64,000 bases of DNA. Source: Arthrobacter sp. C2 (lineage in GTDB: Bacteria > Actinomycetota > Actinomycetes > Actinomycetales > Micrococcaceae). The stretch lies in NCBI GenBank assembly GCA_024207135.1, contig CP042428.1:2604001-2668000 (forward strand), given 5' to 3'. The translations under genes were made by a program, and so were the position numbers. How positions within the stretch are numbered: the first letter of the stretch is position 1; the number at the start of each line of letters is the position of its first letter. Shown here one piece after another: positions 33,452 to 54,106 of the stretch. A model generated the notes under the pieces. That model worked only from the letters and a program-made list of their open reading frames with translations, was not told the origin of the DNA and did not search any database.

Positions 33452-34345
33452 TCACGTCTTGTCCAGTCCCAGCACCCGCACCGCGTTGTCCTTGAGGATC
33501 AGCGGGCGGACCTCGTCCTTCAGCGGCAGCTGCGCGAAGGCGCGAAGCCACTTCTCCGGGGTGATCAGCGGGTAGTCGGTCCCGAAGAGCACCTTGGTGG
33601 AGAGCACGTTGTTGCTCATCTTCACCAGCGACTCCGGGAAGTACTTCGGGCTCCAGCCCGAGAGGTCGATGAAAACGTTGGCCTTGTGCGTGGCGATCGA
33701 GTTGGCCTCGTCCTGCCAGGGCACCGAGGGGTGCGCCATGATGATCGTCAGGTTCGGGAAGTCCGCGGCCACATCGTCAAGCAGCAGCGGGTTGGAATAG
33801 CGCAGCTTGATGCCGCGCCCGCCGGGAAGCCCGGCGCCCATCCCGTTCTGCCCGGTGTGGAAGATGCACGGCAGGCCGATCTCCTCAAGGGCCGCCCACA
33901 GCGGGTGGAACTCCTGGCTTGAGGGGTCAAAGCCCTGCAGCGAGGGGTGGAACTTGAAGCCGCGCACCCCGAGCTGCTCCGCCTGGCGGCGCGCCTCGGT
34001 GATCGCGCCCGGGCCGGTGCGCGGGTCCACCGAGCCGAAGGGGATCAGCACGTCGTTGTGCCGCGCGGCCCCGGCGACCAAGTCGTCGATGGAGTTCGGC
34101 GCGTGGCCCAGCGCGGTGCGCGCGTCCACGGTGAACAGCACCGCGGCCATCTTCGCCTCGCGGTAGACCTGCGCAATGCGGTCCACCGAGGGGGTGCGCT
34201 CCGCGGACTTGAAGTACGCGGCGGAGGCCTCGAAGAGGTCCTCGGGCATGGCCTTGTGCCCGTGCCCGTCGACCTCGAGGTGCACGTGCATGTCGATTGC
34301 GGTGACCGCGTCGAGATCGATCCTGGACTCGTAGCGAACACTCAT
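33452..34345 (-). CDS. Amidohydrolase (amidohydrolase_2 family)
   Basis: About 297 aa TIM-barrel metal enzyme: DMHVHLE is the HxH metal motif, RGFKFHPSLQGFDP, CIFHTGQN and IIMAHPSVPW carry further His residues, and FGTDYPL the catalytic Asp. The family includes decarboxylases such as gamma-resorcylate and ACMS decarboxylase. The chosen start (34345) has GGAGA 13 nt upstream; ATGs at 34381 and 34384 are alternatives. It is last in the alkylphenol operon, 51 bp after the ALDH, in the place where creB would stand by gene order. That equivalence is not certain. Confidence 0.8.
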   Translation of the reverse strand: MSVRYESRIDLDAVTAIDMHVHLEVDGHGHKAMPEDLFEASAAYFKSAERTPSVDRIAQVYREAKMAAVLFTVDARTALGHAPNSIDDLVAGAARHNDVLIPFGSVDPRTGPGAITEARRQAEQLGVRGFKFHPSLQGFDPSSQEFHPLWAALEEIGLPCIFHTGQNGMGAGLPGGRGIKLRYSNPLLLDDVAADFPNLTIIMAHPSVPWQDEANSIATHKANVFIDLSGWSPKYFPESLVKMSNNVLSTKVLFGTDYPLITPEKWLRAFAQLPLKDEVRPLILKDNAVRVLGLDKT

Positions 34346-34396
34346 ATTTGCCGTGTCACTTTCTCCGTGATTGTTGGGCATCATCTTGCCACGCCG

Positions 34397-35938
34397 TCAG
34401 CCAGCGATCTTGCGGTGGATCGACTTAAAGCTGAGGTACGCGCCAAGTCCCTCGATGCCGTATTCCACGCCCAAGCCGGAATCGTGCCGGCCACCGAACG
34501 GCGCGGCATGGTTGGACCCGAAGAAATTGATTCCCACCGATCCGGAGTCCACCCGCTTCGCGACCTCCAACGCGTGGGTCTCGTCGGCCCCGAAGACCAG
34601 GCCGCCGAGTCCGAACTCGGTGTTGTTGGCCAGGGCCACCGCCTCGTCGGCGGAACCGCCCGAATCGTCGTACTTCAGGATCGAGATGACGGGACCGAAG
34701 ATTTCCTCTTTGGAAATCCGCATGTCCCTGGTGACATCGGCGAAGACCGTCGGTCGGATGAACGCTCCGTTCTCGAGCCCGGGCCCCAATGAACCTCCGT
34801 CGACTGCTGCACCGCCCGCCACGGCCCGGGCACCCTCTGCGTGGGCCGATTCGATGTACTCCATCACCGTGTCGTATTGGGCCCGGTGCGCCACCGGGCC
34901 GAAGACCGTCGACTCGTCCAGCGGGTCTCCCTGCCTGCCGGCGGAGATCGTTTCGCCGACCATCCGAACCACTTCCTCGTACCTGGAGGCCGGGGCGATG
35001 ATGCGGGTGGAGATGTAGCAGGTCTGGCCGGTGTTGCGCATGCAGGAGCGCACCAGCACCGAGGCCATGGCCTCCAGGTCGGCATCCGGCAGCACGATCG
35101 CCGAGGACTTGCCGCCCAGCTCCAGGGTCACCGGGCGCAGCAGCTCGCCGCAGGCCGCGGCGATCTTCCGGCCAACCGGCGTCGAACCGGTGAACGCGAT
35201 CTTGTCGATCCCGGGATGGCGCACCAGCGCATCGCCCAGGCGGCCAGGGCCGGTCAGCAGGTTCACCACGCCGGCCGGGACGCCTGCCGCGTGCACCGCA
35301 TCAATGATGAAGCGCAAGGACAGCGGGGTGGGCGAGGCAGGCTTGATGACCACCGTGCAGCCGGCGAGCAGGGCCGGGGCCAGCTTGATGACCACGAGGT
35401 TGATGGGGAAGTTCCAGGGCGCAATCAGCCCGCACACGCCGACGGGGTCCCGCTGAACCACGGACTCGGCGCCGCCGGCCGGGAAGGCGCGGATGTCGTC
35501 CGAATCCAGCCAACCCGCCAGCGAGGCGAAATAGCGGAAAATGCCCGCCGCATTGGCTGCGGCCCCGCGCGTCTCGGTGATGGGAGAGCCGTTCTCCCGC
35601 GTATTGGTCAGCGCCAGGACTTCGGCCCTGACCTCGATTTCCTCCGCAATCCGCAGCAGGTACGCGGCGCGTTCGGCTGCAGAGAGACCACCCCAGCCGG
35701 CCAACGCCTGCCGGGCGGAGGCAACGGCATCATCCAACTCCCCGGCGGTGGCAGCCGGGACAGAGCCCCATTGCTCGCCGGTGGCCGGGTCGGTGACCGG
35801 GTTCCGGGTGGCGTCGGCGGCCACGTGCCAGGACCCGTCGACGTAGAAGTCATCCACATGTGCGTACGGAAGATCGAGCGCCGCTCGACGGGTGCGCGCA
35901 TCCTGGCTCGCCTCGGTACCAGCAGCAGCGGGGCTCAC
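34397..35938 (-). CDS. creC: Aldehyde dehydrogenase of the alkylphenol cluster
   Basis: 513 aa from a GTG that overlaps the upstream HD gene stop by 4 bp (GTGA). VTLELGGKSS carries the general base, NTGQTCYISTR the nucleophilic Cys, and LIAPWNFPINL and AFTGSTPVGR the cofactor contacts; the FDV-like end FGGRHDSGLG is intact. In the cre pathway of Corynebacterium, as recalled, CreC oxidises the 4-hydroxybenzaldehyde-level intermediate (free or phosphorylated) to the acid. The symbol rests on matching family and position in the C-to-J gene order. Confidence 0.8.
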   Translation of the reverse strand: MSPAAAGTEASQDARTRRAALDLPYAHVDDFYVDGSWHVAADATRNPVTDPATGEQWGSVPAATAGELDDAVASARQALAGWGGLSAAERAAYLLRIAEEIEVRAEVLALTNTRENGSPITETRGAAANAAGIFRYFASLAGWLDSDDIRAFPAGGAESVVQRDPVGVCGLIAPWNFPINLVVIKLAPALLAGCTVVIKPASPTPLSLRFIIDAVHAAGVPAGVVNLLTGPGRLGDALVRHPGIDKIAFTGSTPVGRKIAAACGELLRPVTLELGGKSSAIVLPDADLEAMASVLVRSCMRNTGQTCYISTRIIAPASRYEEVVRMVGETISAGRQGDPLDESTVFGPVAHRAQYDTVMEYIESAHAEGARAVAGGAAVDGGSLGPGLENGAFIRPTVFADVTRDMRISKEEIFGPVISILKYDDSGGSADEAVALANNTEFGLGGLVFGADETHALEVAKRVDSGSVGINFFGSNHAAPFGGRHDSGLGVEYGIEGLGAYLSFKSIHRKIAG

Positions 35939-36705
35939 CGGATCACCTCGGTGCGCAGCAGGGCATTGTTCCGCTCGATATCGGCCCGGGCCATGGCGAC
36001 ACCTGCCGCGCTGATAAGTTCGGGAACGATCTCTGCATCGAGCCTGGCCATGTAGCTGGACGCGTCGGTGCCGAACCATTCCATCGACATGGCGATCCCG
36101 GCCTGGTCGAAGCGCCAGAGCCTGTCGGAGTCCCGGACCAGGGCATCCTCGAGGCTGAAGGCAGCCTTCCGGGTGTCGTGGCCGTCGATGATCTCGCAGA
36201 CCCGTTCAACGAAGGACTCGTCATAGCCGAGACCCGGCAGCACCCGGCGGGCCACCTTCATGCCCTCCACCTCGTGCTCGAACCGGATAACGGCCTGGCG
36301 CCAGTCGCCGCTTCCGCGAAATCCTTCCGAGACGATGCGTGACTGATCCACGTGCGCCCACCCGGTGTCGTGCAGGATTGTCGCAACCATGACCAGTTCG
36401 CGGTCCGCCTCCGGATGGGCGTCGCACAGGCGCGCGGCGAAGGCAGCCACGATCGGCAGGTGCAGGTCATTGGCACGCGAGCGAGTCTCAGGGATGATTG
36501 CCCTCCACAACTCGTCGTGGCCGGTGGAGGGGGTGGTGGCGATCGGGTCGGTGTTCACCTTCCCCTGTGCGGGGATGGGCCGTGTCGGGTAGGCATCGGC
36601 GAAGGCGAGCGCGCGCGGATCGCGGGCGTGCGTTTCCTGCTCGACGGACATGCGGGAGGTGATTTCCTCGGGCAGGTCCCTGGGCAAAGTCTCGGTGTTG
36701 CTCAT
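35935..36705 (-). CDS. creD: HD-domain phosphohydrolase
   Basis: 256 aa. The HD motif is H112-D113 in ATILHDTGWAHVD; an upstream His (H82, NDLHLPIVAAF), EHEVEGMKVARRV and the late RDSDRLWRF Asp complete the metal site. HD enzymes hydrolyse phosphate esters. In the cre scheme CreD removes the phosphate from the oxidised aryl phosphate, releasing 4-hydroxybenzoate-type products. It overlaps both the ferredoxin reductase gene and the ALDH by 4 bp. Confidence 0.82.
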   Translation of the reverse strand: MSNTETLPRDLPEEITSRMSVEQETHARDPRALAFADAYPTRPIPAQGKVNTDPIATTPSTGHDELWRAIIPETRSRANDLHLPIVAAFAARLCDAHPEADRELVMVATILHDTGWAHVDQSRIVSEGFRGSGDWRQAVIRFEHEVEGMKVARRVLPGLGYDESFVERVCEIIDGHDTRKAAFSLEDALVRDSDRLWRFDQAGIAMSMEWFGTDASSYMARLDAEIVPELISAAGVAMARADIERNNALLRTEVIR

Positions 36706-38003
36706 GCTGTGACCTCCAGGTCCACGGTGATTGATTTCAGCGAAACCGACACATCGGCCGCCAGGTCCGCGGGGATGTTCTGGTTCTTTCCCAGGGCGGT
36801 CCGCACGGCCATGAAGTCCAGGGGCGTATTGACGCAGTCGGCGGCAATGATCTGTTCGCCGCGGTAGTAGAGCACCGAGAATTTTCCCTTCTCCGTATCA
36901 TGGCGGACCACGGTGGAGTCGTAGCCAAGAGTGAGTCCGGCGATCTGCAGCTTCAGGTCGGCCTGGTTGGACCAGAACCACGGAATGCCTGCATATTCCT
37001 CTTGGCGCCCGGTCAGCGAATAGGCGGCGATCTTGGCATGCTCGATCGCGTTGTTCACGCTTTCGAGGCGGATGCGTTCGCCTTCGGGTGCGCCCGGCAA
37101 CGGGTTGGGCATGTTCGCCACATCCCCGACGACGATGGTGGTCCCGTCGGAGGCGAGGGCGTGCTTGTCCACCACCACTCCGTTGTCGATCTCCAGTCCC
37201 ATCTGCTCGGCGAGTTCCGTATTCGGGACGACCCCGATGCCGATGAGGACCAATTGGGCCTTGACCACGGAACCGTCCTCCAGCTGGACGCCGGCGACCT
37301 TTCCGTTTCCGTTGTCCACGAAGCCGGTCATGCGGGAGTCTAGCTGGATGTCGATGCCGCGTTTGCGGTGGGATTGCAGGAAGTATTCGGAGGTCTCTTC
37401 CCCGACGGCGCGGCCTACCAGACGCGGCCCGTATTCAAGCACCGTGACGTTCTTGCCCAGCCCGTGCAGGGAGCAGGCGGCCTCCAGGCCGATGAATCCC
37501 CCACCAATGACCACCGCATCCTGGAAGTCGCCCAGTCGCGCCTTGAGTGCAAGGGCATCGTCGGCGCTGCGGAGGTAGACCACCCCGTCAAGGTCGGCGC
37601 CCGGGATTTCGATTTTCCGGGCGCGCGCCCCCACGGCCAGGGCCACCCGGCGGAACGGGTATTCGGTGCCGTCCGAGGCGACGGCGACGCCGGAGCCGTC
37701 TTGACGGTTCTCGCCGTCGGTGCCCTTGCGGACCTCTTGGATCCGGGCACCCTTGACAAGCTCGATGTTGTGTTCGTCCCAGTACTCCTGGGACCGGAAG
37801 ATGAGGTTTTCCTTGTCCACCTTGTCCTGGAGGAACTCCTTGGACAGGGCCGGACGCTGGTAGGGGCGGTGGTTTTCCTCGCCCAGCAGGGTGATGTGTT
37901 CGCCGAAGCCGGTGCCGCGCAGCGAGATGGCCAATTGCACGCCGGCCTGGCTCGCGCCGATGATCAACAGTCCCGTTTCGCTCCGGGTTCTCGGGGTACT
38001 CAT
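36702..38003 (-). CDS. creE: FAD-dependent ferredoxin reductase of the alkylphenol P450
   Basis: 433 aa. GLLIIGASQAGVQLAISLR is the FAD motif, RPALSKEFLQ follows, VIGGGFIGLEAA the NAD(P)H motif and VVGDVANMPNP the second FAD contact. Same family as the reductase at 8.6 kb but clearly a different gene. It should reduce the ferredoxin encoded 91 bp upstream for the P450 at 42.3 kb. Confidence 0.88.
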   Translation of the reverse strand: MSTPRTRSETGLLIIGASQAGVQLAISLRGTGFGEHITLLGEENHRPYQRPALSKEFLQDKVDKENLIFRSQEYWDEHNIELVKGARIQEVRKGTDGENRQDGSGVAVASDGTEYPFRRVALAVGARARKIEIPGADLDGVVYLRSADDALALKARLGDFQDAVVIGGGFIGLEAACSLHGLGKNVTVLEYGPRLVGRAVGEETSEYFLQSHRKRGIDIQLDSRMTGFVDNGNGKVAGVQLEDGSVVKAQLVLIGIGVVPNTELAEQMGLEIDNGVVVDKHALASDGTTIVVGDVANMPNPLPGAPEGERIRLESVNNAIEHAKIAAYSLTGRQEEYAGIPWFWSNQADLKLQIAGLTLGYDSTVVRHDTEKGKFSVLYYRGEQIIAADCVNTPLDFMAVRTALGKNQNIPADLAADVSVSLKSITVDLEVTA

Positions 38004-38094
38004 GTCTCGCTCCTGGATCGGGTCGGCCGGTCGGCCGGGGCTGGTGTTGGTGGCGGGCCGCGGCCAGGCGACGCCTGGCTGCGGTCCGGGTGCG

Positions 38095-38415
38095 TTAGGT
38101 CTGCGTCTCGGGGGTGGTGACGTACAGGTCCATGTCCTCGGTCACCTTGATCTGGCAAGAGAGCCGTGAGTTCTCCTCGCGGTCCACGGACGTTCCGTAG
38201 AGCATCTCGTCTTCCATCTCTTCCATCTCCGGCAGCTCGCCCAGCTGGTCCTCGCGGACGAAGACGTGGCAGGTGGCGCAGGAGAGGGAGCCGCCGCATT
38301 CGGCGACGATCCCGTCCACGCCGTTTCGCACGGCGGTCTCCATGACGGAGTCCCCGGTCTTGGCGTTGATGTCGACGGTCTTTCCGTCGTGGTCCGTGTA
38401 GTGAATGACCGGCAT
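38095..38415 (-). CDS. creF: [2Fe-2S] ferredoxin of the alkylphenol P450
   Basis: 106 aa. Ligands C40, C46 and C49 (CGGSLSCATC) and C87 (RLSCQI) match the P450-type ferredoxin pattern and spacing exactly. GAGGA lies before the ATG. It carries electrons from the reductase to the P450. Confidence 0.9.
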   Translation of the reverse strand: MPVIHYTDHDGKTVDINAKTGDSVMETAVRNGVDGIVAECGGSLSCATCHVFVREDQLGELPEMEEMEDEMLYGTSVDREENSRLSCQIKVTEDMDLYVTTPETQT

Positions 38416-38464
38416 GTGGTCCTCCTCGAAGTTGTGGCTGGCTGGCGCTGTTAAGGTGCCGGGA

Positions 38465-39229
38465 CTAGATGAACTGGCGTCCGCCGTCCACCACGAGCGT
38501 TTGGCCCGTGATGTAGCCGGCGCCGCGGGACGCCAGGAACAGTGCCGCCCCGACCATGTCCTCGGGCTGGCTGGCCCGCTTGATTGACCCGCGGTCCACG
38601 CCGTAGGTCTCGGCGTTGTCCATGTGGCCGTAGCTGGCCTCGGTCAGGGTGAAGCCGGGAGCCAACGCATTGACGGTGATGTTCCGGGCGCCGAGTTCCT
38701 TGGCAAGCACGCGGGAGAGCGCCACCACCCCGCCCTTGGACGCCACGTAGTGGGCCCATTCGGCGGAGCCGGAGAAGATCGTCGCGCTTGCAAGGTTCAC
38801 CACGCGCCCACCGTCGGGCAGATACGGGCTGGCGGCCCGCGTCACCAGCCAGGGCCCCTTGAGGTTGACGCCCATGACCAGGTCCCACTCGTCCGGGTCG
38901 ATCTGCTCGAAGGGGGAACGCTTGATGGTCGCGTAGATGGCGGCGTTGTTGACCACCACATCGATGCTTCCGTTCCCGAACTCCGCGACTCCGGCCGCAA
39001 GTTCGGTGACGGAGGCCAGGTCCGTGACATCGACCTTGAAGGCGCGGGCGTCGGCCCCGGTTCCGCGGATGGCCTCGGCCGTGGCCTGGGCCCCGTCGAA
39101 GTTGATGTCGGCGATGGCCACCCGGTCCCCCGCTGCGGCAAAGCCTTCGGCAATGGCCCTGCCCAGGCCACCTGCGGCACCGGTGACCAGGACGGTGCGC
39201 GGGGGCTGGGGCATAGTCGACTCAGGCAT
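38465..39229 (-). CDS. creG: Short-chain alcohol dehydrogenase of the alkylphenol cluster
   Basis: 254 aa. VLVTGAAGGLGRAIAEG and IADINFDG bind NAD, VVNNAAIY is the NAG motif, and the catalytic Tyr-Lys pair is in HYVASKGG. The start at 39229 has GAGGAG about 10 nt upstream and lies within the end of the kinase subunit gene (8-bp overlap). CreG-type enzymes oxidise the benzylic alcohol made by the P450. On an ethyl side chain the same step would give a ketone, which matters for the link to the neighbouring cluster. Confidence 0.85.
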   Translation of the reverse strand: MPESTMPQPPRTVLVTGAAGGLGRAIAEGFAAAGDRVAIADINFDGAQATAEAIRGTGADARAFKVDVTDLASVTELAAGVAEFGNGSIDVVVNNAAIYATIKRSPFEQIDPDEWDLVMGVNLKGPWLVTRAASPYLPDGGRVVNLASATIFSGSAEWAHYVASKGGVVALSRVLAKELGARNITVNALAPGFTLTEASYGHMDNAETYGVDRGSIKRASQPEDMVGAALFLASRGAGYITGQTLVVDGGRQFI

Positions 39230-41129
39230 GGGTCGGGCTCTCCTCGGGGGTTGCATGCTCGTGGTGGCTGTGGGCGCCGGGGCCCTGAACCAGGACCGCG
39301 GCGTTCTCGCCGTCAAGGATCAACACGGTGCCCTTGTTGCCGTCCACGCGCAAGCGCTGCCCGGTCTTGATGGTGGTGGAGGCACTTCCGGTGCCGGTGA
39401 CGGCCGGCAGCCCGTACTCGCGGCAGACGATGGCCGCGTGGCTCATCATCCCGCCGATGTCCGTGACGGTGGCCTTGATCTTGCCGAAGATCGGGCCCCA
39501 GGACGGGGCGGTGACCGGGGCGACGAGAATCTCGTCCTGCCGGATCTCGGCCAGGTCGTCGGCGTCCATGATGACACGGGCCACACCCTCGACGATGCCC
39601 GGGGAAGCGGCCATGCCCTTGAGCACGCCCTCGGAACCGTCCTCGCCCACACCCAACCAGGACTCCACCTGTTCGGTGGTGATGCCCCAAAGCATCCGGG
39701 TGAACGGTTCGGTGATCGCCTGCGGCGGGGTGTTCAGCGCCGGGGCCGGGCGGGCGGATTTCAGCGCGTCCACCAAAGCGGTGCGTTCGGCGATGATTTC
39801 CGGCCAGATGTGCGTACCCGTGGGACCTTCCGGGTTGCCGACGCCCCAGGAGGATACGAGGTCGAAGAGCACGTCGCGAACCTCGTTGCGGCCCAGGTAC
39901 AGCAGGTCGTCCTCGTTTTCCCAGAAGCCGTAGCCGTGCAGCATGCGGGAAAGCTGGCGGATCTTGCGCCAGAAGACGCCCATGGTCCAGTGTTCGATGT
40001 AGAAATTGTGGTTTTCCACGTACGGGTAGGCAGTTGCGGCCAGCCCTAGCTTGGCATTGAAGGTTGCAAGTGTTTCGCCCTCCAGCAATTCGCGGTATTC
40101 CTCGACAATCCGATCCTTCTCGGCGATCAGTTCCGCCTTGGGACGCATGATCGTCTGTCCCTGCTCGATCCGGCCGATGTAGTCGGCGATGTACCCCAGC
40201 GGGATGTTGAGGTATTCGTTCCAGTACTTGTCATGCCCGTAGAAGCCGTTGCCCACGGTGAAGTTGAACCACGGGTCCTGGGCCTCGGCCCAGCGGCCCA
40301 TCCAGCGCTGCCCGCCATGGGCGGCAGCGATCGCGGCCAGGGTGCCCTCGACGTCGTCGGTGTTGCCGAAGTGGGATTGAAGGCCCAATTCAACTGCCAG
40401 CGTGGCGAGGTCCTTGAGTTCGTCATCCGGGCGGAACAGTTCCATGTCCACGCCCTGGACCATCATGGCGATCGACTGGTCGGGGATGTCCGGGAAAATT
40501 TCCTTGCAGTAGTTGAAGAAGTCCAGGTAGGCGATGTAGCCCAGATTCAGGAACTCGAAGTGGTACTGCCAGTTCTGGTAGCAGAGCTGGATCAGCCGGT
40601 CGTAGTTTTCCAGCAGCACCTCGGAGCCGTCCTTCCCCTTGCCGGAGAGGATGTCTTCCATGGGGACCATGTCCGGCAGCGGGTTGAACTGAAGGGATTC
40701 CATTTCATCGATGGTGCCCAGGACCTTGGTCTTCCACTGGGTCAGCAGGGAGTCCCAGTTCTGGAAGTAGTGCCCGACGCGGGCCTGGAACTCGGGCACG
40801 CGGGCGGCGATCTGGTCCTCGGGGACCGGAAGCGGGGAAAAGTACAGGTAGCCCAGGTGGATGCGGAAGTCGATCCCGTTGGCCGTGGGGATCATCAGGT
40901 GCCGGGCGTTGTACTGCCCCAGGCACTTCGAGGCGAACTCGGTGCCGACGGTCTCGAACGGCTTGAAAACGGTGGGCCAGTGCTGCGAATCGCAGAACCA
41001 GAACTTCTCGTCCTCCACGGCCTTGAGCTTGTCCTGGAAGACGAGGTAATAGGGATAGAGCTTTTCCCAGCCTTCGGCTCCGGCGGGAACCGGCAGCTCG
41101 GAGGGCTTCGGGAAGGACTTCTTGATCAT
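39222..41129 (-). CDS. creH: Phenol-phosphorylating kinase, phosphohistidine/catalytic subunit (PEP-synthase C-terminal-like)
   Basis: 635 aa. The N-terminal 500 residues are the subfamily-specific substrate region (WEKLYPYYLVFQDKL, YVENHNFYIEHW). The mobile phosphohistidine domain follows with catalytic H564 in DIGGMMSHAAIVCREYGLPA. This is the split PEP-synthase design of phenylphosphate synthase and of CreHI, in which ATP phosphorylates the His and phosphate then passes to the phenolic OH, giving an aryl phosphate, AMP and Pi. A His-rich tail (GAHSHHEHATPEE) is an oddity absent from the paralogue at 52.2 kb. The ATP-grasp subunit gene lies 67 bp upstream. Confidence 0.87.
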   Translation of the reverse strand: MIKKSFPKPSELPVPAGAEGWEKLYPYYLVFQDKLKAVEDEKFWFCDSQHWPTVFKPFETVGTEFASKCLGQYNARHLMIPTANGIDFRIHLGYLYFSPLPVPEDQIAARVPEFQARVGHYFQNWDSLLTQWKTKVLGTIDEMESLQFNPLPDMVPMEDILSGKGKDGSEVLLENYDRLIQLCYQNWQYHFEFLNLGYIAYLDFFNYCKEIFPDIPDQSIAMMVQGVDMELFRPDDELKDLATLAVELGLQSHFGNTDDVEGTLAAIAAAHGGQRWMGRWAEAQDPWFNFTVGNGFYGHDKYWNEYLNIPLGYIADYIGRIEQGQTIMRPKAELIAEKDRIVEEYRELLEGETLATFNAKLGLAATAYPYVENHNFYIEHWTMGVFWRKIRQLSRMLHGYGFWENEDDLLYLGRNEVRDVLFDLVSSWGVGNPEGPTGTHIWPEIIAERTALVDALKSARPAPALNTPPQAITEPFTRMLWGITTEQVESWLGVGEDGSEGVLKGMAASPGIVEGVARVIMDADDLAEIRQDEILVAPVTAPSWGPIFGKIKATVTDIGGMMSHAAIVCREYGLPAVTGTGSASTTIKTGQRLRVDGNKGTVLILDGENAAVLVQGPGAHSHHEHATPEESPTHA

Positions 41130-42315: not shown

Positions 42316-42332
42316 GGTGTTTCCCGTTCGAT

Positions 42333-43768: not shown

Positions 43769-43786
43769 TTTTTCACTCAGTGGAAA
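43769..43786. promoter_or_regulatory. IclR-type box, alkylphenol operon copy
   Basis: TTTTTCACTCAGTGGAAA: an imperfect palindrome with TTTC-N-CTCAGTG-GAAA symmetry. It matches the site at 54231-54248 in 16 of 18 positions. Both stand before kinase-led operons, next to IclR genes. Confidence 0.6.
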
Positions 43787-47629: not shown

Positions 47630-49212
47630 GTTGTTCCCCCGGGGGATTGTGGGTTGCCCGCGTCGTTGCGGCGTTGCAGCCTCAGGTGCTGGTTGCCGCG
47701 GCGGATATCCAGCGACTTCCAGTTCGGCAGGGTGTTGACCGCGCGGATCGCATCGCCCAGGTTCAGCACCGGGCCGGCGGCTGCGGCGCGCTTGCCCGCT
47801 GGTTCCCACGCGGGAGCCGGGCCCGCGGCGCGCACGGCGTCAAGCAGGTCCGGGGCCATGACCAGGCGCAGGAGCAGCTCCTCGTCCGCGACGTCGCGGC
47901 CGAGCTTGCGCTGCTGGTCGGCGCGCAGTTCCTCGAGCGGGCGGTCGTGGGCGGGGTCCATCTTCAGTTCCCTGGCCCGGGGCAAGGCGTTGACCCTTGC
48001 GCGGATCGACGGGTCGATCTCGCCGACCGGCGTGCCGAAGTGCCCCAGCACGAACCTGACGACCTCGTCGGGGATGCGGCTGTAGCGTTCCTGCCCGGAC
48101 TTGGCGGCCAGCACGTTCATCAATGCCTGGCTGCCGACGAACTGGCTGAACGGGGTCACCATGATCGGGTACCCGAGTTCGGCGCGCACCGTCCCGGTCT
48201 CGGCGATCACCGCGGGCAGGTCGTCCTCGATCCGCAATTCCTTTAGTTGCCGTTTCAGGGTGCCCATCATGCCGCCGGGGACCTGGTGGGCGTGGGGCGA
48301 CAGGTCAAAGGGCATGGTTTGGCCGGCGGGCAGCTGCTGCGCTTCGGCGATCCGGGCGATGGTTGCCGCGGCGCGCTCGACGGCGGCGCGGTCCGCCGCA
48401 TAGGGGATGCCCAGGGCGTCGAGGTTGTCCATGACCGAGAGCATCTCGGGCTGGGCGGTGCCGTTGGCCAGTGCCCCGATACCGGTGTGCAGCACGTCCA
48501 CGCCCAGTTGCGCGGCGAGCATGTAGACCTGCGGTGCCTCCCCGGTGGTGCAGTGGCTGTGCAGTTCCAGCGTCTTGCCCACCACCACCTCGCGCAGCGC
48601 CGGGATCAGGTGCCCGGTGCGCTCATAGGTCAGCAGTCCGCCGGGGTCCTTGAGGTAGACCGCGTCGATGTTCGAGTCCTTGGCGAACGCGCGGGCCGCT
48701 TCCACATAGGTGTCGTCGGTGTGCAGGGGCGATTCGGTGAACGTCGTGGCTGCCACGACGTGGGTGATGCCCTCTTCCTTGGCCCACCTGGCGATGGTGC
48801 GCACCGCGTCGACGTCGTTCATCGGATCGGCGATCTGCAGCCGTGCCAGTCCGTGCTTGGCCATCAAGCGCAAGGAGAGGCGCATGACGGTCTCCGAGGC
48901 GCGGTCCCAGGACATGAAACGCATGCCCGTGGTGATGGCCGAGAGCGGCGTGCGTCCGGTCACCGCATGCATGCGCGAAATCCGCTCCCACGGATCCTCG
49001 AGGTGGGTCTTGGAACCCATCAGCAGGTTGGTGGAACTGGTGAAGTCGATGGCTTCCAGGCCGATCAGGGCCAGGTCCTCACCCACGGCCTCGACCATGC
49101 CCGTGGTCAGGCCGGTGGCCCCCCACAGCGACTGGTTGCCGTCCCGCAGCGAGGTGTCGACGAAGCGAACCGGCGCCCGGCCGGTGGAATCGGTGCTCGG
49201 TTGTTCAGTCAT
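47626..49212 (-). CDS. Biotin-dependent carboxylase, carboxyltransferase subunit (pyruvate-carboxylase-like)
   Basis: 528 aa HMGL-like TIM barrel: VDTSLRDGNQSLWG, LKDPGGLLT with the carbamylated-Lys position, LELHSHCTTG metal His pair and GYPIMVTPFSQFVGSQA. Most relatives carboxylate pyruvate or decarboxylate oxaloacetate. Here the subunit sits with separate biotin carboxylase and carrier genes in a kinase-led operon, the layout of HpeCBA, which carboxylates the methyl group of 4-phosphoacetophenones. The exact letter (A, B or C) cannot be assigned from sequence. Confidence 0.85.
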   Translation of the reverse strand: MTEQPSTDSTGRAPVRFVDTSLRDGNQSLWGATGLTTGMVEAVGEDLALIGLEAIDFTSSTNLLMGSKTHLEDPWERISRMHAVTGRTPLSAITTGMRFMSWDRASETVMRLSLRLMAKHGLARLQIADPMNDVDAVRTIARWAKEEGITHVVAATTFTESPLHTDDTYVEAARAFAKDSNIDAVYLKDPGGLLTYERTGHLIPALREVVVGKTLELHSHCTTGEAPQVYMLAAQLGVDVLHTGIGALANGTAQPEMLSVMDNLDALGIPYAADRAAVERAAATIARIAEAQQLPAGQTMPFDLSPHAHQVPGGMMGTLKRQLKELRIEDDLPAVIAETGTVRAELGYPIMVTPFSQFVGSQALMNVLAAKSGQERYSRIPDEVVRFVLGHFGTPVGEIDPSIRARVNALPRARELKMDPAHDRPLEELRADQQRKLGRDVADEELLLRLVMAPDLLDAVRAAGPAPAWEPAGKRAAAAGPVLNLGDAIRAVNTLPNWKSLDIRRGNQHLRLQRRNDAGNPQSPGGTT

Positions 49213-50617
49213 CTGGCTGCGTCCTATCCTTCAAGTGGGTCTCCCACACGGGCCCGAACCACGTGGTGGGCATGGAACCGGCGCGGAAGTCCGGATGGTT
49301 CAAGACAAATTCGTGCATCGGCAGCGTGGTTTTCACCCCGTCGATGCGGGTGCGCGCCACGGCCGAGGCGAGCGCCTGAACCGCCGCCTCGCGGTTGTGT
49401 GCCCGCACGATGAGCTTGCCCATCAGGCTGTCGTAGAACGGCGGGAACGAGTAGTCATCCCGCAGGTGGGTGTCCACCCTGATCCCGGGCCCGCGCGGCC
49501 AGGTGACGGTGTTGATGTGCCCGGGTGACGGGCGGAAGTCCAGCAGCGGGTCCTCGGCGTTGATGCGGACCTCGATCGCCGTGGTCGGTGGCACCGGCGG
49601 GACCTCGGGCAGTTCCGGGTCCATCCCCAGGGCCAGGCGCAGCTGGGCTGCCACCAAATCGACACCGAATGCTTCTTCGGTGACCGGGTGCTCGACCTGG
49701 ATGCGGGCGTTGACCTCGAGGAAGATCACGTCCTCCGATTGGGTGTCGACCATGAACTCGACGGTGCCCGCCCCGCGGTAGCGCAATTCGCGGACCAACG
49801 CGCGGGAGGAGTCGTGCAGGATCTTGCGGCGTTCGGCGGAGAGTCCGGGGGCCGGGCATTCCTCGACCAGCTTCTGGTGGCGGCGCTGCACCGAGCAATC
49901 GCGGTCGCCGAAGATCAACGCGTTGCCTTCCCCGTCCCCGAACACCTGCACCTCCACGTGGCGGGCTGCGGCGTAGTAGCGCTCGAGGTAGAGTTCGCCG
50001 TTGCCAAAGGCCGCGATGGCCTCGGCCGCGGCCTGCGGGGCCAGAGACACCAGGGACTCGGCGTCGGGGGCCAGGCGGATGCCGCGCCCCCCTCCCCCGT
50101 AGACGGCCTTGACCAGCAACGGATAGCCCACCTCGGCACCCAGGGAGCGCAGCTGCTCCGCGTTATGGGGGTCGGCAACGGGTGCCGCCACGGCCACCGG
50201 GGTTCCCGCCGCAACTGCCACCTTGCGGGCGCTGGACTTGTCGCCCACTGCCCGCAGCGTCTCGGCGCGCGGGCCGGCGAAGGCGATGCCTTCTGCTTCC
50301 AGCAGTTCGGTGAGCTCGGGCTGTTCGCTGAGAAATCCGTAACCCGGGTGGACCACGTCCGCTCCGACCTGGATCGCTGCCTGCGCGATCAGTTCGGGAC
50401 GCAGGTAGGACTGCGATGCCTGGGCGGGGCCGATGACAACGACCTGGTCGGCGAGCGCTGCCCCCAGGGAATTGCGGTCGGCCGCGCTGACCGCAAGCAC
50501 GGCGCGTGCCCCGATGCGGTGGGCGGCCTCGATGACGCGCACGGCGATCTCACCGCGGTTTGCCACCAGCACGGTGGGGATGGCGGCCGGTTTCGCGCCG
50601 CCCTGCTGCTGGCTCAT
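49205..50617 (-). CDS. Biotin carboxylase subunit
   Basis: 470 aa ATP-grasp enzyme of the AccC type: VLVANRGEIAVRVIEAAHR at the N-terminus, KAVYGGGGRGIRL the ATP loop, FGDRDCSVQRRHQKLVEECPAP and EVNARIQVEHPVTE the catalytic blocks. It makes carboxybiotin on the carrier protein from ATP and bicarbonate. It overlaps the carboxyltransferase gene by 8 bp and the carrier by 4 bp. Housekeeping acetyl-CoA carboxylase use cannot be ruled out but is unlikely given the operon. Confidence 0.9.
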   Translation of the reverse strand: MSQQQGGAKPAAIPTVLVANRGEIAVRVIEAAHRIGARAVLAVSAADRNSLGAALADQVVVIGPAQASQSYLRPELIAQAAIQVGADVVHPGYGFLSEQPELTELLEAEGIAFAGPRAETLRAVGDKSSARKVAVAAGTPVAVAAPVADPHNAEQLRSLGAEVGYPLLVKAVYGGGGRGIRLAPDAESLVSLAPQAAAEAIAAFGNGELYLERYYAAARHVEVQVFGDGEGNALIFGDRDCSVQRRHQKLVEECPAPGLSAERRKILHDSSRALVRELRYRGAGTVEFMVDTQSEDVIFLEVNARIQVEHPVTEEAFGVDLVAAQLRLALGMDPELPEVPPVPPTTAIEVRINAEDPLLDFRPSPGHINTVTWPRGPGIRVDTHLRDDYSFPPFYDSLMGKLIVRAHNREAAVQALASAVARTRIDGVKTTLPMHEFVLNHPDFRAGSMPTTWFGPVWETHLKDRTQPDD

Positions 50618-51138
50618 GAGGCCTCCGGGGCAATGAACAGCAGGTCCTGTCCGTATTCCACTGCCTCGGCGTCCTTCGCCGCGATGGCGGAGACGGTTCC
50701 GGCAACCCCTGCATGGACCGGGTTCATCAGCTTCATGACCTCGATGATGCCGATGACCGAATCGGCTGTGACGGTGTCTCCCACTGAGACAAACGGCGCT
50801 TCACCAGGGGCAGGGCTACGGAAGAAGATTCCCAGCATCGGGGATGTCACGGCTGTGCCCTGGGGCGCCGCGGGCGCTGCCGGAGCTGCCGGAGTTGCCG
50901 GAGTTGCCGGCGCGGATGGTTCCGGCTGCACCAACGCCGCCGGCGCGGGCGCGGGTTGCACAGCTGCGGCCGGGGCAACGGGAACAGGCTGCGCGGCCGC
51001 CTCGACGGGCAGATCGCCGCGGGACATGCGCACGGAGATGCCGTCGTAGTCGACTGCGACATTGTCGAAGTCGGAACCGTCGAGTTCGGTGATCAGTTGC
51101 ACCAGGTCGTCCCAGGAGGGACGGGAGTTCTCTGCCAT
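50614..51138 (-). CDS. Biotin carboxyl carrier protein
   Basis: 174 aa. A short N-terminal domain, a long Ala/Pro hinge (about 47-92) and the biotinyl domain with K136 in IIEVMKLMNPV, the biotinylation site. The hinge swings biotin between the carboxylase and the carboxyltransferase. It sits 2 bp after the kinase ATP-grasp gene, so kinase and carboxylase are expressed together. No biotin ligase is in the window; the host must supply it. Confidence 0.92.
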   Translation of the reverse strand: MAENSRPSWDDLVQLITELDGSDFDNVAVDYDGISVRMSRGDLPVEAAAQPVPVAPAAAVQPAPAPAALVQPEPSAPATPATPAAPAAPAAPQGTAVTSPMLGIFFRSPAPGEAPFVSVGDTVTADSVIGIIEVMKLMNPVHAGVAGTVSAIAAKDAEAVEYGQDLLFIAPEAS

Positions 51139-51140: not shown

Positions 51141-52250
51141 TTAGGATCCTTTCGAAGCCGATGAGATGAAGCCCAGCAGCGCGGATGCCGCGGACTTGTC
51201 TTTCGTGCGGGCGTTGTGTTCTTCCTTGCGTTTTTTCCAGTTCGTCTCGGGGCGCGATTGCAGGAGCATGATTTGGCTGGTGCCATCCGCATGCCGTTCA
51301 AGTGCCCATTCGATGTCTTGGGGTTGTCCGTAGTGCTTTTCGACGTCGATGGCGATCCGTGCCAGCTGGAGCACTTCTTCCTCGCTCAGGCATGCCCGGC
51401 TGCGGCGTTCGGCATCCACCTCGCGCAGTTCAATGCCGTTGGAGCCGGCGTTGGGGACGTATTCCTGGGCTTTCTCGGCGATCCGCGTTTCCTTGATGAC
51501 CGGGCCGATCTTGGAGAGCCAGTATTCATCCGGGGTCACTTCGCCGGAGACCACCGACTGGCCCAGTCCGTAGCTGGCATTGATGGCGACCACGGAGCGG
51601 TCCCCGGAAATGGGGCTGACCGTGAAGGTCACCCCGGCGACGTCGGCAGCGGCCATCAGTTGGATGGCCACCGAGATGCGCGATGAGGCTGCGCCCTCGG
51701 CTGCGTCCATGGTGGACCGGTAGGAGATGGCCTGCGGGGTGTAGAGGCTGGCCCAGCATTCGCGGATCTTCTCGAGCACCGTTTCGGCGCCGCTGACCCA
51801 CAGGAAGGTTTCCTGCTGGCCGGCGAAGCTGGCGGCATCTCCGTCCTCGTCGGTGGCCGATGAGCGGACGGCCACGGGGATCATTGCGGCGTCCGGCCCG
51901 GTGAGGCCGCGCCGAGCGGCAGTCTGGGCCGCCAAGGCGTTGTAGCCCTCGGTGATTTCCCGTTCCATGTCCTGGGGCATTGGATGGTGCAGGATCAGCT
52001 CGATGGCCTTCTCGTGGGCCCGCTGGAGTTCCTGGGGGCCGGCGTCCTGCATTCCCTGGACCAGGTCCTGCAGCCGTGAGCGAAGGCCGGAGCCATCGCG
52101 AAAGTCCTCGAAGGCGTCGACGGTGACGGCAAAGCCGTCCGGGACGGGGAGCCCTGCTCCGACCATTTCGCCGAGGCTGGCACACTTGCCGCCCACCGTT
52201 TCGCGGTCGCCGGCCCGCAATTCGGCAAAGGGACGTACGTAGCGTGGCAT
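51141..52250 (-). CDS. hpeI: Hydroxyacetophenone kinase, ATP-grasp subunit (PEP-synthase N-terminal-like)
   Basis: 369 aa, paralogue of the subunit at 41.2 kb: VGGKCASLGEMVGAGLPVPDGF, VAVRSSATDEDGDAASFAGQQ, GDRSVVAINASYGLGQSVV and QDIEWALERHADGTSQIML. The ATG shares one base with the stop of the partner subunit gene (TGATG). It phosphorylates the His of the partner with ATP; the partner then phosphorylates the 4-OH of the ketone. The symbol follows HpeHI of Rhodococcus rhodochrous by family and operon content. Confidence 0.85.
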   Translation of the reverse strand: MPRYVRPFAELRAGDRETVGGKCASLGEMVGAGLPVPDGFAVTVDAFEDFRDGSGLRSRLQDLVQGMQDAGPQELQRAHEKAIELILHHPMPQDMEREITEGYNALAAQTAARRGLTGPDAAMIPVAVRSSATDEDGDAASFAGQQETFLWVSGAETVLEKIRECWASLYTPQAISYRSTMDAAEGAASSRISVAIQLMAAADVAGVTFTVSPISGDRSVVAINASYGLGQSVVSGEVTPDEYWLSKIGPVIKETRIAEKAQEYVPNAGSNGIELREVDAERRSRACLSEEEVLQLARIAIDVEKHYGQPQDIEWALERHADGTSQIMLLQSRPETNWKKRKEEHNARTKDKSAASALLGFISSASKGS

Positions 52251-54106
52251 CAGTTCTCTTCCTCCAGAATGGTGACGGTGCCGGCGTCGCCGTCGACGCG
52301 GATCAGCTGGCCAGTTTTGATGGTTGAGGTGCCGAAGCCGACTCCGACGACGGCGGGCAACCCGTATTCGCGCGAGACGATCGCCGCGTGGCACATGATG
52401 CCGCCAATGTCCGAGACTGAGCCGCGGATGCGGCCGAACACGGGTGTCCAGCTGGGGCTCGTGACCGGGGCGACGAGGATTTCCCCGTCCTGGACCGTAT
52501 CCAACTCGTCGGGCCGCATGACCACGCGGGCCCGTCCCTCGGCCACACCGGGCGAGCCGGCGAAGCCGGTCAGGACCTTGGAATCACCCTCGCCCGCCTG
52601 GGCGGCGAGCCACCTGTCAACGGTTTCGGGGGTGATGCCCCAGAGCATAATGGTCAGCGGCTCGTTGACCTCGCCCGGGACCGGGCCGAGTGCCGGCGGT
52701 GGGGACCAGGCACTGAGTGCACGGTAGATCTCGCGGCGGCGGGCAATGATGGGCGGCCAGTGGAAGCCGCCCTGCGGGGTGCCACCTGCGCCCCATGCCA
52801 TCTGCAGGTCGTAGATCGCTTCCTCGACCTCTGCGCGGCGCAGGAAGAAAATGTCTTCGATGTCGTTCCAGAAGCCCCATTCAACGAACTTGGCGCTGAA
52901 TTCCCGCACCTTGTTCCAGAATCCGGTGAGGAACCAGTGCTCGACATAGAAGTTGTGGTTTTCGACGTAGGGGAACACCGTGCGTGCCAACCCGAGGGTC
53001 TCGTCGAAGGCCTCCCGGTCATCCTCGTCCAGCAACTCGCGGTAGTTTGCGGTGATCTCGTCGCGTTCAGCCTGGAGCTTGTCCAGGGGGCGGGTGAGGT
53101 CGTTGCCGGCACGGAGCTGGTCGATGTAGTCTCCGATGCCCTGCAGCGGCAGCGCCATGTCATCGACCCAGCTCCGGTGGGAGTGGTACATGCCCGATCC
53201 GTTGGAGAAGTTGAACCAGGGATCCTTGGCCGTATCGAGGGCGGCGAGCCAGGCCAGACCCGCCTCATCGGTGAGGTTCGCCCGCAGCTCGTCCTCGGAA
53301 GAGCAGGCCTTCACCGCGTCGGAAACGCCAAGTTCCTCGGCCTTGCGGGCCAGGTTGCGCAACTCGTCATCGGGACGGAACAGCAGGACATCGATGCCGG
53401 AGACCATGCGTGAGATGGTCTGGTCGCCGATTTCCGGGAAGTGCCCCTTGCACAGCGTGAGGAATTGCAGGTAGGCGGCGTAACCAAGATTCAGGAATTC
53501 GGAATGCAAGGTCCAGATCTGGTCCCCTGCTTCAAGCAGTCGGTGGTATCCGGCCAGCAGCAGGTTTCCCTGTGTGGGGCCCCGGTCCTCGGTGACCCTT
53601 TCAAGGGCTTCGAACTCGCTGAGTTCCGGGACCTCGATCTCATAAACGCCCTTGATGGCGTCCGTGACGCGGGTTTCCCACTCATCGTAGAGGGCGTCCC
53701 AGTTCTTGAAGTAGTAGCCGGCACGCTGGGCAAATTCTCCGGCACGCCGGGCTTGTGTCTCTTCGTCCGGGGAGTCCAGCGCGGACATGTAGGTGTACCC
53801 GTTGATGACGCGAACATCCAGGCCCAAGGCCGGTGGCAGGGCGAAGACCCGGGTATTTGTCACGCCGGTTCCGGTGAACGACCCGTCGATGACGGCGTGG
53901 TCGAAGGGGTAGGAGACTTCGGGGAAGTGCAGTGAGTTGCGGAACCAGGTCCTCTTCGAATCCTCGTCACGACGGGCCTCGAGAAAACGGTTGTGGTAGG
54001 AGTACATATCCTCCCAGCCTTCGGCGCCCTCGGGTGTCTCGATGTCGTACGGGTCTGGAAAGCTTGCTTTGAGAGCGGACAATTGATCCGTTGCATGGCT
54101 TGGCAT
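52250..54106 (-). CDS. hpeH: Hydroxyacetophenone kinase, phosphohistidine/catalytic subunit (PEP-synthase C-terminal-like)
   Basis: 618 aa from the ATG with AAGGAG 7 nt upstream. Same architecture as the subunit at 39.2 kb: a long specificity region (WEDMYSYHNRFLEARRDE, YVENHNFYVEHWFLTGFWNK) then the phosphohistidine domain with H573 in DIGGIMCHAAIVSREYGLPA. The residue before the His is Cys here and Ser in the other copy. First gene of the ten-kilobase carboxylase operon, with the IclR-type box at 54231 in its promoter. Confidence 0.86.
   Translation of the reverse strand: MPSHATDQLSALKASFPDPYDIETPEGAEGWEDMYSYHNRFLEARRDEDSKRTWFRNSLHFPEVSYPFDHAVIDGSFTGTGVTNTRVFALPPALGLDVRVINGYTYMSALDSPDEETQARRAGEFAQRAGYYFKNWDALYDEWETRVTDAIKGVYEIEVPELSEFEALERVTEDRGPTQGNLLLAGYHRLLEAGDQIWTLHSEFLNLGYAAYLQFLTLCKGHFPEIGDQTISRMVSGIDVLLFRPDDELRNLARKAEELGVSDAVKACSSEDELRANLTDEAGLAWLAALDTAKDPWFNFSNGSGMYHSHRSWVDDMALPLQGIGDYIDQLRAGNDLTRPLDKLQAERDEITANYRELLDEDDREAFDETLGLARTVFPYVENHNFYVEHWFLTGFWNKVREFSAKFVEWGFWNDIEDIFFLRRAEVEEAIYDLQMAWGAGGTPQGGFHWPPIIARRREIYRALSAWSPPPALGPVPGEVNEPLTIMLWGITPETVDRWLAAQAGEGDSKVLTGFAGSPGVAEGRARVVMRPDELDTVQDGEILVAPVTSPSWTPVFGRIRGSVSDIGGIMCHAAIVSREYGLPAVVGVGFGTSTIKTGQLIRVDGDAGTVTILEEEN

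Follow-up and report, generated by a model that had tools for sequence, protein, structure and literature searches.

Adjoining cre- and hpe-like operons in Arthrobacter sp. C2 and a possible phosphate-tagged route for 4-ethylphenol

Gene content and layout of the locus

A minus-strand run of 17 genes occupies positions 54106-33452 of the window, the whole 64,000-nucleotide stretch of Arthrobacter sp. C2 DNA that was analyzed (Table 1). The hpe part comes first, in the order hpeHI, biotin carrier, biotin carboxylase, carboxyltransferase, hpeD, and hpeE; it is followed by IclR-P450-creIH-SDR-ferredoxin-reductase-HD-ALDH and then by an amidohydrolase of the HpeF/CouO kind. hpeE and the hpeF-like gene thus flank a whole cre operon, whose IclR-to-ALDH gene order was also found standing alone on two Rhodococcus plasmids. 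Intergenic gaps across the 17 genes are at most 91 bp, the sole exception being the IclR/P450 gap (184 bp), and do not exceed 2 bp in the hpe part from H to the ligase. Further aromatic-type genes are found elsewhere in the window.

A previous sequence-only reading had described two complete split kinases, each leading a minus-strand operon, with the operons lying back to back. Both kinases are intact, and all the companion genes that it listed are present with open reading frames. The operons are, however, arranged head-to-tail, both on the minus strand, and a kinase leads only the hpe part, as the cre part starts with an IclR regulator and the P450.

Table 1 Features of the cre-hpe locus and its neighbors (window coordinates).
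Feature	Position	Strand	Support
VAO-family flavoprotein	29150..30766	-	PDB matches: 8s7q group, 4-allylsyringol oxidase, eugenol oxidase, p-cresol methylhydroxylase
SDR dehydrogenase beside VAO gene	30984..31760	+	adh_short_C2
HpeF/CouO-like amidohydrolase	33452..34384	-	PF04909; ends the run
CreC-like aldehyde dehydrogenase (ALDH)	34397..35938	-	aldehyde dehydrogenase families; 65% to Rhodococcus cre
CreD-like HD phosphohydrolase	35935..36705	-	PF01966
Ferredoxin reductase	36702..38003	-	61% to Rhodococcus cre
2Fe-2S ferredoxin	38095..38415	-	67% to Rhodococcus cre
CreG-like SDR alcohol dehydrogenase	38465..39229	-	SDR families; 69% to Rhodococcus cre
creH-like kinase alpha subunit	39222..41129	-	NF006150, 1251 bits
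creI-like kinase beta subunit	41197..42315	-	PPDK_N; 64% to Rhodococcus cre operons
CreJ-like cytochrome P450	42333..43628	-	best PDB matches 5xjn/7ccf/5gwe; heme motif FGFGIHYCLG
Palindromic operator-like site, cre promoter	43771..43786	-	TTTCCACTGAGTGAAA
IclR regulator of cre cassette	43813..44631	-	11 bp behind hpeE
hpeE-like acyl-CoA ligase (acetoacetate-CoA ligase family)	44643..46670	-	NF002937, 838 bits; 70% to A. macra
hpeD-like HAD-IIA phosphatase	46667..47629	-	HAD-IIA families; 62% to A. macra
Carboxyltransferase subunit	47626..49212	-	PYC_OADA + HMGL-like
Biotin carboxylase subunit	49205..50617	-	best model NF009471, 530 bits, cut-off 686; 74% to A. macra
Biotin carboxyl carrier protein	50614..51138	-	TIGR00531, Biotin_lipoyl; EVMKL biotin site
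hpeI-like kinase beta subunit (ATP-grasp)	51141..52250	-	PPDK_N; top PDB match 9goj, 499 bits
hpeH-like kinase alpha subunit (substrate-binding + swivel domain)	52250..54106	-	NCBIfam NF006153, 779 bits
Palindromic operator-like site, hpe promoter	54233..54248	-	TTTTCACTGAATGAAA
IclR regulator divergent from hpeH	54282..55130	+	weak NCBIfam IclR matches, under cut-off
Second IclR-like regulator	55127..55957	+	ORF read by eye

Assignment of the kinases and their companion genes

The Cre-like and Hpe-like names given in the previous reading are supported: catalytic-site residues, the closest solved structures, and gene order alike separate the two kinases into an Hpe and a Cre type. The P450 scores 728 bits against 5xjn/7ccf/5gwe, which we take to be CreJ structures, and 257 bits against the next entry. 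The runner-up to 9goj (taken here as GD02 HpeI) reaches only 220 bits with the HpeI-like subunit, and the CreI-like subunit scores only 245 bits against 9goj itself. In the HpeH-like protein, a Cys precedes the catalytic His (SDIGGIMCH), fitting the T/SxxGGxxxH rule given for Hpe kinases in a passage of PMC12167813; in the CreH-like protein, this residue is a Ser (TDIGGMMSH), as reported for CreH.

For the carboxyltransferase, biotin carboxylase, and I subunits, the nearest curated models come from PEP synthase, pyruvate carboxylase, and acetyl-CoA carboxylase, but the scores lie well under the cut-offs, which argues against true orthologs of these enzymes. The PEP synthase model ranks best for both I subunits, which reach 331 and 348 bits against the full-length PEP synthase/pyruvate phosphate dikinase cut-off of 598 bits, and the similarity of the H subunits to PEP synthase models is concentrated in their swivel domain. 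Neither the biotin carboxylase nor the carboxyltransferase (best NCBIfam model 254 bits, cut-off 402) attains a pyruvate or acetyl-CoA carboxylase equivalog cut-off; the biotin carrier is the only part of the hpe carboxylase to pass a general model (TIGR00531, 125 versus a cut-off of 115).

The three-part biotin-dependent carboxylase, the HAD phosphatase, and the CoA ligase share an operon with HI, in synteny with Actinomadura macra and Rhodococcus JS3073. With its likely F gene, the window contains the same gene set as the Hpe systems of Rhodococcus rhodochrous GD02 and A. macra NBRC 14102 (hpeHICBADEF), the first six A. macra genes being active in RHA1 according to a passage of PMC13101465. 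Identities to A. macra range from 43 to 78% (78% for H, 64% for the carboxyltransferase), and a second genome of the family (G015) is closer for the carboxyltransferase (74%) and carries the nearest relative of H (85%). In contrast to GD02 and A. macra, the likely F follows the cre operon, not E, and closely resembles a second gene in the same genome.

Every part of the Corynebacterium glutamicum 4-cresol system (CreHI, CreJEF, CreG, CreC, CreD), described in part of PMC9549646 as oxidizing p- and m-alkylphenols, is present in one operon, the C. glutamicum proteins having been compared only via the PDB match. This full set (CreJ-type P450, ferredoxin, reductase, SDR, ALDH, and HD phosphohydrolase) is syntenic with the two Rhodococcus plasmids. 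The HD protein falls in a clade of HD proteins whose genes, in cre operons, sit between those for the reductase and the ALDH, and the nearest relatives of the Cre H subunit (83-85%) are in another genus of the family. Unlike in C. glutamicum, cre is here a second copy, placed between hpeE and the HpeF-like gene, with a palindrome in common with hpe. A third split kinase lies in the other copy, a complete and genus-typical cre operon at C1:2.498-2.508 Mb.

Regulators and promoter palindrome

The hpe and cre promoters of the window carry a near-identical palindrome (TTTTCACTGAATGAAA and TTTCCACTGAGTGAAA, respectively), which is also found at both promoters of the two Aurantimicrobium minutum loci. 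It was not found in the Klenkia and Microbacterium BR1 loci, allowing up to three mismatches. The IclR regulator of the cre cassette is 53% identical to the one at the same pre-P450 place on Rhodococcus plasmids pRB98 and Y14. The IclR regulator divergent from hpeH is 59% identical to its counterpart in G015 and 49% in JS3073, and in both of these a pair of IclR-type genes likewise precedes hpe.

The amidohydrolase at the far end of the run

The amidohydrolase, which the previous reading had left unnamed, is likely HpeF, the last step of the hpe route. CouO was assigned to the amidohydrolase superfamily (PMC4737184, in part). The gene stands 10 kb from hpeE, behind cre, whereas HpeF is expected after hpeE, and its product is 61% identical to that of the gene directly after hpeE in JS3073. 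A near-copy at C1:2844701 (92% protein and 90.9% DNA identity) lies near genes for a CoA-ligase-like protein and an SDR (C1:2.845 Mb), and a gene on an Arthrobacter plasmid encodes a 76% identical protein. An insertion of cre between E and F of an intact hpe operon was not established, as the amidohydrolase is nearer these other copies than JS3073. The duplicated DNA is limited to 897 nt. These findings fit better with a CouO-type gene having been recruited later, at the end of the run.

A possible phosphate-tagged relay

The Cre kinase would phosphorylate a 4-alkylphenol, the P450 with its ferredoxin and reductase would hydroxylate the benzylic carbon of the phosphorylated product, and the SDR would oxidize the resulting alcohol. 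A methyl side chain would proceed through the aldehyde and acid to dephosphorylation (ALDH and HD); an ethyl side chain would halt at the ketone 4-phosphoacetophenone, unusable for the aldehyde dehydrogenase and a substrate of the Hpe carboxylase, which prefers it about tenfold (PMC9618137). After carboxylation by Hpe, HpeD would remove the phosphate, HpeE would form the CoA ester, and the HpeF-like amidohydrolase would split this into 4-hydroxybenzoate and acetyl-CoA. Free 4-hydroxyacetophenone would enter via HpeHI. The block could then be a single, co-regulated pair of phosphate-tag modules feeding 4-hydroxybenzoate, which is the reading that we prefer, at about even odds, and for which we infer the ethyl-chain hand-over, the co-regulation, and the amidohydrolase function alike. 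The genes and their order, the kinase types, the common palindrome, the recurring join, and the single-kinase pattern were observed directly, and the Hpe enzyme activities and the Cre oxidation of p- and m-alkylphenols come from published work. The single-kinase composites described below, the common palindrome, and the far-end HpeF-like gene argue for coupling over the separate pathways of the previous reading.

Several observations count against the relay. The hpe-bearing GD02 can use 4-methylphenol for growth but fails to grow on 4-ethylphenol (PMC9618137, in part), and the palindrome was not found in Klenkia and Microbacterium BR1. Moreover, 4-hydroxyacetophenone could be supplied independently of Cre by the VAO flavoprotein and the SDR (29-31.8 kb), the former as a possible separate source of its precursors and the latter as a possible alcohol-to-ketone step. 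4-Ethylphenol would then be converted via 1-(4-hydroxyphenyl)ethanol to 4-hydroxyacetophenone for HpeHI, the nearby cre genes taking other methylated phenols. The adjacency of the two genes and the PDB matches of the flavoprotein are consistent with this, as is an SDR gene after hpeD in ten of 27 hpe loci (best 80 of 317 relatives). Nevertheless, no VAO match was found in the 20-35 kb scanned at the five relatives where cre and hpe are joined, so this route cannot explain the join generally, and we regard it as very improbable.

The kinase-carboxylase idea is also found in acv of Sphingobium SYK-6 and xcc of Aromatoleum aromaticum EbN1, likened here by description only. In EbN1, xcc serves in the use of ethylphenol, and homologs of hpeHI are clustered (PMC9618137, in part); the passages on acv and xcc do not mention a P450 route that depends on phosphate and is joined to them. 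The anaerobic phenylphosphate synthase PpsAB is a two-part dikinase like HpeHI (a passage of PMC12167813), but its partner carboxylase is not homologous to that of Hpe (a passage of PMC9618137). Our literature search found the modules themselves but not the cre-hpe join, a shared kinase, or this 4-ethylphenol route.

In a passage of PMC12167813, the authors of the HpeHI study call it unclear why such catabolic routes start with phosphorylation. If the phosphate were a tag read by consecutive modules, the reason would become testable: the phosphate would keep the substrate inside the cell and offer it to the P450 and the carboxylase alike. Through the relay, 4-ethylphenol would also be converted aerobically to 4-hydroxybenzoate while avoiding meta-cleavage. 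This would be of use for mixtures derived from lignin, and natural single-kinase operons (e.g., Klenkia) could provide the parts.

Rarity of hpe and recurrence of the join

Hpe is rare, as the previous reading stated: a close carboxyltransferase is present in 2 of 395 family genomes (its own and G015) and 1 of 396 order genomes (its own), both sets being even draws from larger groups. The adjacency to cre, which had been called unusual, is also rare, but it is not unique. Among the 27 other hpe genomes taken from the best 80 of 317 relatives (carboxyltransferase identity of at least 56%), 18 have a Cre-type P450, and in five it lies no more than 20 kb from hpe: Aurantimicrobium minutum Bo1 and Tana7, Microbacterium BR1, Klenkia soli, and Nocardioides CFH 31398. 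About 0.5 linked genomes would be expected under random placement, and linkage requires at least four changes on the carboxyltransferase tree. No carboxyltransferase relatives were found among viral contigs.

Unlike GD02 and A. macra, these five relatives have hpe joined to cre with one kinase each, a whole-genome search yielding a single H kinase in every one (four Cre-type, one Hpe-type). In the 13 P450-bearing genomes without a link seen (same best 80 of 317 relatives), 10 have both kinase types and 3 have one (5/5 versus 3/13, Fisher p = 0.0065). When restricted to the four in which the distance surely exceeds 20 kb, all have both types (p = 0.0079). The ten two-kinase genomes indicate that linkage is not required, and they would suit a plain neighborhood of independent 4-cresol and 4-hydroxyacetophenone/acetovanillone pathways that have no intermediate in common and were gathered into an aromatic catabolism island. 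The different nearest relatives of the two H subunits and the other aromatic-type genes of the window would also fit such an island. The single kinase of all five linked relatives, the palindrome that the hpe and cre promoters have in common in the window as well as in A. minutum, and the repeated linkage changes speak against it, and we consider it unlikely.

Cresol is also a substrate of HpeHI, which phosphorylates it about one quarter as fast as 4-hydroxyacetophenone (PMC12167813, Table 3, in part), so a single kinase could suffice for the two modules. The single-kinase genomes might then reflect only a broad kinase serving both substrates, the P450 product never reaching the carboxylase. 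This seems improbable to us, as it requires an outside source of 4-hydroxyacetophenone and leaves unexplained why the join recurs with the P450, SDR, and redox partners and not with the kinase alone. The five single-kinase relatives suggest that the two routes can combine into a single pathway for phenols of plant origin, 4-ethylphenol among them; because the window keeps both kinases, this argument comes from the relatives. We tentatively propose, at slightly less than even confidence, that Cre and Hpe are halves of one 4-ethylphenol pathway, linked by 4-phosphoacetophenone, in which the phosphate added by a single kinase is kept up to ketone carboxylation and which was assembled repeatedly in actinobacteria. 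All five composites retain the methyl-branch ALDH, so none is specialized for the ketone branch.

A special clade of hpe-linked Cre P450s was rejected, as the window P450 clusters with Micrococcaceae cre P450s in the tree; among linked P450s, only those of Klenkia and Nocardioides make their own clade. No alignment column separated linked from unlinked P450s (random label sets average 0.014), which also counts against the relay.

A more distant hpe-like variant (39-41% carboxyltransferase identity), not counted as the same family, was observed ~12 kb from cre in G209, ~30 kb from it in G158, and at a larger distance on one contig with it in G114, G180, and G141.

Layout of the seventeen-gene run

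The source genome is complete (4.56 Mb), and seventeen genes of the window lie on one strand. The first part of the run encodes the hpe-type kinase subunits H and I, biotin carrier, biotin carboxylase, carboxyltransferase, HAD phosphatase (D) and an acetoacetate-type CoA ligase (E). An IclR regulator, P450, cre-type I and H, SDR, ferredoxin (Fdx), ferredoxin reductase (FdR), HD hydrolase and aldehyde dehydrogenase (ALDH) follow in the middle, and the final gene encodes an amidohydrolase. The IclR gene begins 11 bp past the CoA-ligase gene, and intergenic gaps are at most 91 bp, with the sole exception of 184 bp between the IclR and P450 genes. When positions 33000-46900 were scanned for terminator-like patterns, all seven matches fell on the plus strand and none on the minus; shuffled sequence gives 9.2.

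Positions of the features discussed (window positions unless a contig or locus is named)
Feature	Position	Strand
Window	C1:2604001-2668000	
Seventeen-gene run	54106 to 33452	minus
ATP-grasp subunit (I), hpe part	51141-52250	minus
ATP-grasp subunit (I), cre part	41197-42315	minus
Amidohydrolase gene	33452-34384	minus
Amidohydrolase gene, second copy	C1:2844701-2845606	
Resident cre operon	C1:2497617-2507672 (L006 13617 to L007 3672)	
Lone HD gene of G015	L107 13792-14526	
Further P450, ferredoxin and reductase set	6990-9886	
Dioxygenase, monooxygenase and fumarylacetoacetase-like genes	10850-14414	
SDR-gene repeat	30967-31266 / 59787-60086	
MBL-fold gene repeat	32187-32408 / 63182-63403	

The window also contains a further P450, ferredoxin and reductase set, near which lie glyoxalase/extradiol-type dioxygenase, FAD monooxygenase and fumarylacetoacetase-like genes.

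Identity of the kinases and associated proteins

The sequence-only reading had named the two gene sets Cre-like and Hpe-like, as opposed to true PEP synthase or pyruvate carboxylase orthologues, and this naming is supported. PEP synthase or carboxylase models were the closest curated ones for both I subunits, for biotin carboxylase and for the carboxyltransferase, all below cut-off; the biotin carrier does reach the cut-off of TIGR00531. The top PDB matches of the P450 were 5xjn, 7ccf and 5gwe, which we take to be CreJ structures, at 728 bits (next, 257).

The ATP-grasp subunit of the hpe part best matched 9goj (499 bits; next structure, 220), and that of the cre part showed no clear preference, its two best matches scoring 253 and 245 bits with 9goj second. 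The code 9GOJ appears a single time in the text of PMC12167813, where an HpeI crystal structure is described and the residue preceding the catalytic His is given as Cys in HpeH and Ser in CreH and PpsA. The window H subunits read SDIGGIMCH in the hpe part and TDIGGMMSH in the cre part; the former motif was present in every collected H at least 59% identical to window hpeH (26 rows, 22 distinct loci), and the latter in every one at least 63% identical to window creH (41 rows, 35 distinct loci).

Relatives of the two parts

The closest relative of the hpe part belongs to G015, a genome from another genus of the family (H 84-85% identical). There, a lone CreD-type HD gene immediately follows hpeE, and neither a cre-type P450 nor a cre-type kinase was found in the genome; the HD gene is perhaps the remnant of an earlier cre-hpe join. 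Identities to Actinomadura macra were 78% for H, 62% for I, 43% for the carrier, 74% for biotin carboxylase, 64% for the transferase, 62% for D, 70% for E and 57% for F. As stated in PMC13101465, the first six A. macra hpe genes in Rhodococcus RHA1 converted hydroxyphenylethanones, far slower than those of R. rhodochrous GD02. Table 1 of PMC9618137 places the carboxyltransferase (hpeB) ahead of the biotin carboxylase (hpeA), and the biotin carboxylase gene comes first in A. macra (L128), Rhodococcus JS3073 (L033) and the window; the labels may have been swapped, or the GD02 gene order may be different. A second hpe layout, with an SDR gene after the phosphatase gene, occurs in ten loci (L114-L121, L123, L124; Microbacteriaceae and related, mostly MAGs), with the CoA-ligase gene divergent upstream in seven; the remaining three contigs stop before that point.

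The cre gene order from IclR to ALDH occurs by itself on Rhodococcus plasmids pRB98 and Y14 (L034, L035), adjoining toluene monooxygenase genes, which suggests a route from toluene via p-cresol to 4-hydroxybenzoate. The Arthrobacter genome carries a complete second, resident cre operon ~130 kb from the window copy. This operon is genus-typical. A search of 14 other genomes of the genus gave a single same-length H in six, to which the resident H is 90-97% identical, and an hpe-type H in none. Window creH is 78% identical to the resident copy, compared to 83-85% for creH copies from a different genus of the family.

Recurrence of the cre-hpe join

Two short peptide patterns were used to scan a species-genome collection for the carboxyltransferase, and the 80 best of the 317 relatives detected were retained; among these, 27 loci at least 56% identical (L108-L134) formed the hpe set, and each of their genomes was searched whole with window H and window P450. 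A Cre-type P450 was found in 18 of the 27 and within 20 kb of hpe in five. The carrier, carboxylase, transferase and phosphatase genes are convergent with a full cre operon in Aurantimicrobium minutum Bo1 and Tana7 and divergent from one in Microbacterium BR1. Klenkia soli carries, on one strand, the carrier, carboxylase, transferase, D, E, F, creI, creH, SDR, Fdx, FdR and ALDH genes, with the P450 divergent. Nocardioides CFH 31398 has H, I, the carboxylase genes, D, E and ALDH on one side and IclR, HD, IclR, P450, SDR, Fdx and FdR on the divergent side. With unresolved MAGs scored as unlinked, the linked state requires at least four changes on the carboxyltransferase tree. The five linked genomes seen compare with about 0.5 expected if the genes were placed at random, a contrast that exaggerates the surprise, since catabolic genes cluster anyway.

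In each of the five linked genomes (named strains, completeness not stated) the search gave a single H match, of Hpe type in Nocardioides and of Cre type in the other four. Of the remaining 13 P450-bearing genomes, ten had both kinase types (two with a fragmented cre-type gene) and three, all MAGs, had one (Fisher p 0.0065, ignoring relatedness). A link within 20 kb is ruled out by the contigs in only four of the 13 (G790, G798, G801, G802), and these four all had both types (Fisher p 0.0079 against the linked five, again ignoring relatedness); in the other nine, one of the genes is close to the end of its contig or the length of that contig was not seen. This single-kinase pattern is stronger evidence than the comparison of linkage with random placement.

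A palindrome common to the promoters

The regions upstream of hpeH and the P450 gene carry a common palindrome, the two sites differing at 2 of 16 bases. The search pattern, TTTYCACTGWRTGAAA, was built from both window sites and the JS3073 site and matches perfectly there by construction. When 3 mismatches were permitted, it gave five strand matches in the window (0.5 expected), namely the two promoter sites, each counted on both strands, and one further match. Twenty sequences were scanned at 0-3 mismatches. Apart from the window sites, the palindrome was present in the hpe and cre promoters of both A. minutum loci, in the resident cre promoter, and in the hpe promoters of JS3073, G015, two Cryobacterium, Alpinimonas, A. 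macra, Virgisporangium, Nocardioides and an Acidimicrobiaceae MAG. It was not found at up to 3 mismatches in the Klenkia, Microbacterium BR1 and Sphaerisporangium loci scanned, nor in the two Rhodococcus plasmid cre operons, where 4-mismatch sites are present; the scanned stretch of another genome, G158, ends short of its cre promoter.

A proposed hand-over from Cre to Hpe enzymes

4-Ethylphenol is reportedly among the alkylphenols oxidised by the Cre system. The P450 and then the SDR would convert the ethyl group to a ketone, and the Cre-made ketone would keep its phosphate, so that 4-phosphoacetophenone would be offered to the Hpe carboxylase. That carboxylase is described in PMC9618137 as preferring 4-phosphoacetophenone over 4-phospho-acetovanillone and not using unphosphorylated acetovanillone. 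Because the ketone would thus be its preferred substrate, a hand-over is expected, and we consider the chances about even. Against it count the reported growth of GD02 on 4-methylphenol and not on 4-ethylphenol (PMC9618137), the retention of both kinases in the window, a VAO-family enzyme and SDR in the window that could make the ketone, and the presence of the methyl-branch ALDH in every linked locus. PMC9549646 describes Cre oxidation of p- and m-alkylphenols; a word search of it did not find "ethylphenol".

The Cre and Hpe modules are each already known. The literature searched described no cre-hpe join, no genomes with the Hpe carboxylase but without the Hpe kinase, and no phosphate-tagged 4-ethylphenol route. 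Four more genomes have complete syntenous clusters according to the main text of PMC9618137, which also refers to partial combinations in SI Fig. S5.

The last gene and the lower pathway

The window amidohydrolase belongs to PF04909 (amidohydrolase family) and is 61% identical to the gene immediately behind hpeE in JS3073. GD02 HpeF is listed as 95% identical to CouO (PMC9618137, Table 1), an amidohydrolase superfamily member according to PMC4737184. The second copy in the Arthrobacter genome is 92% identical (DNA 90.9%, over 897 nt only), with a 4-hydroxybenzoate hydroxylase-like gene (387 bits; curated cut-off 539) and a pair of dioxygenase genes within 9 kb. Given the HpeF/CouO kinship and these neighboring genes, the last step and the lower pathway look available, and we infer that the window amidohydrolase acts as HpeF. 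Recruitment of a couO-type gene may have occurred twice, here and in GD02.

Two further genes of the window are repeated as diverged copies about 29-31 kb apart, an SDR gene (79% DNA identity over the repeat), the second copy of which resembles a fragment, and an MBL-fold gene (73%).
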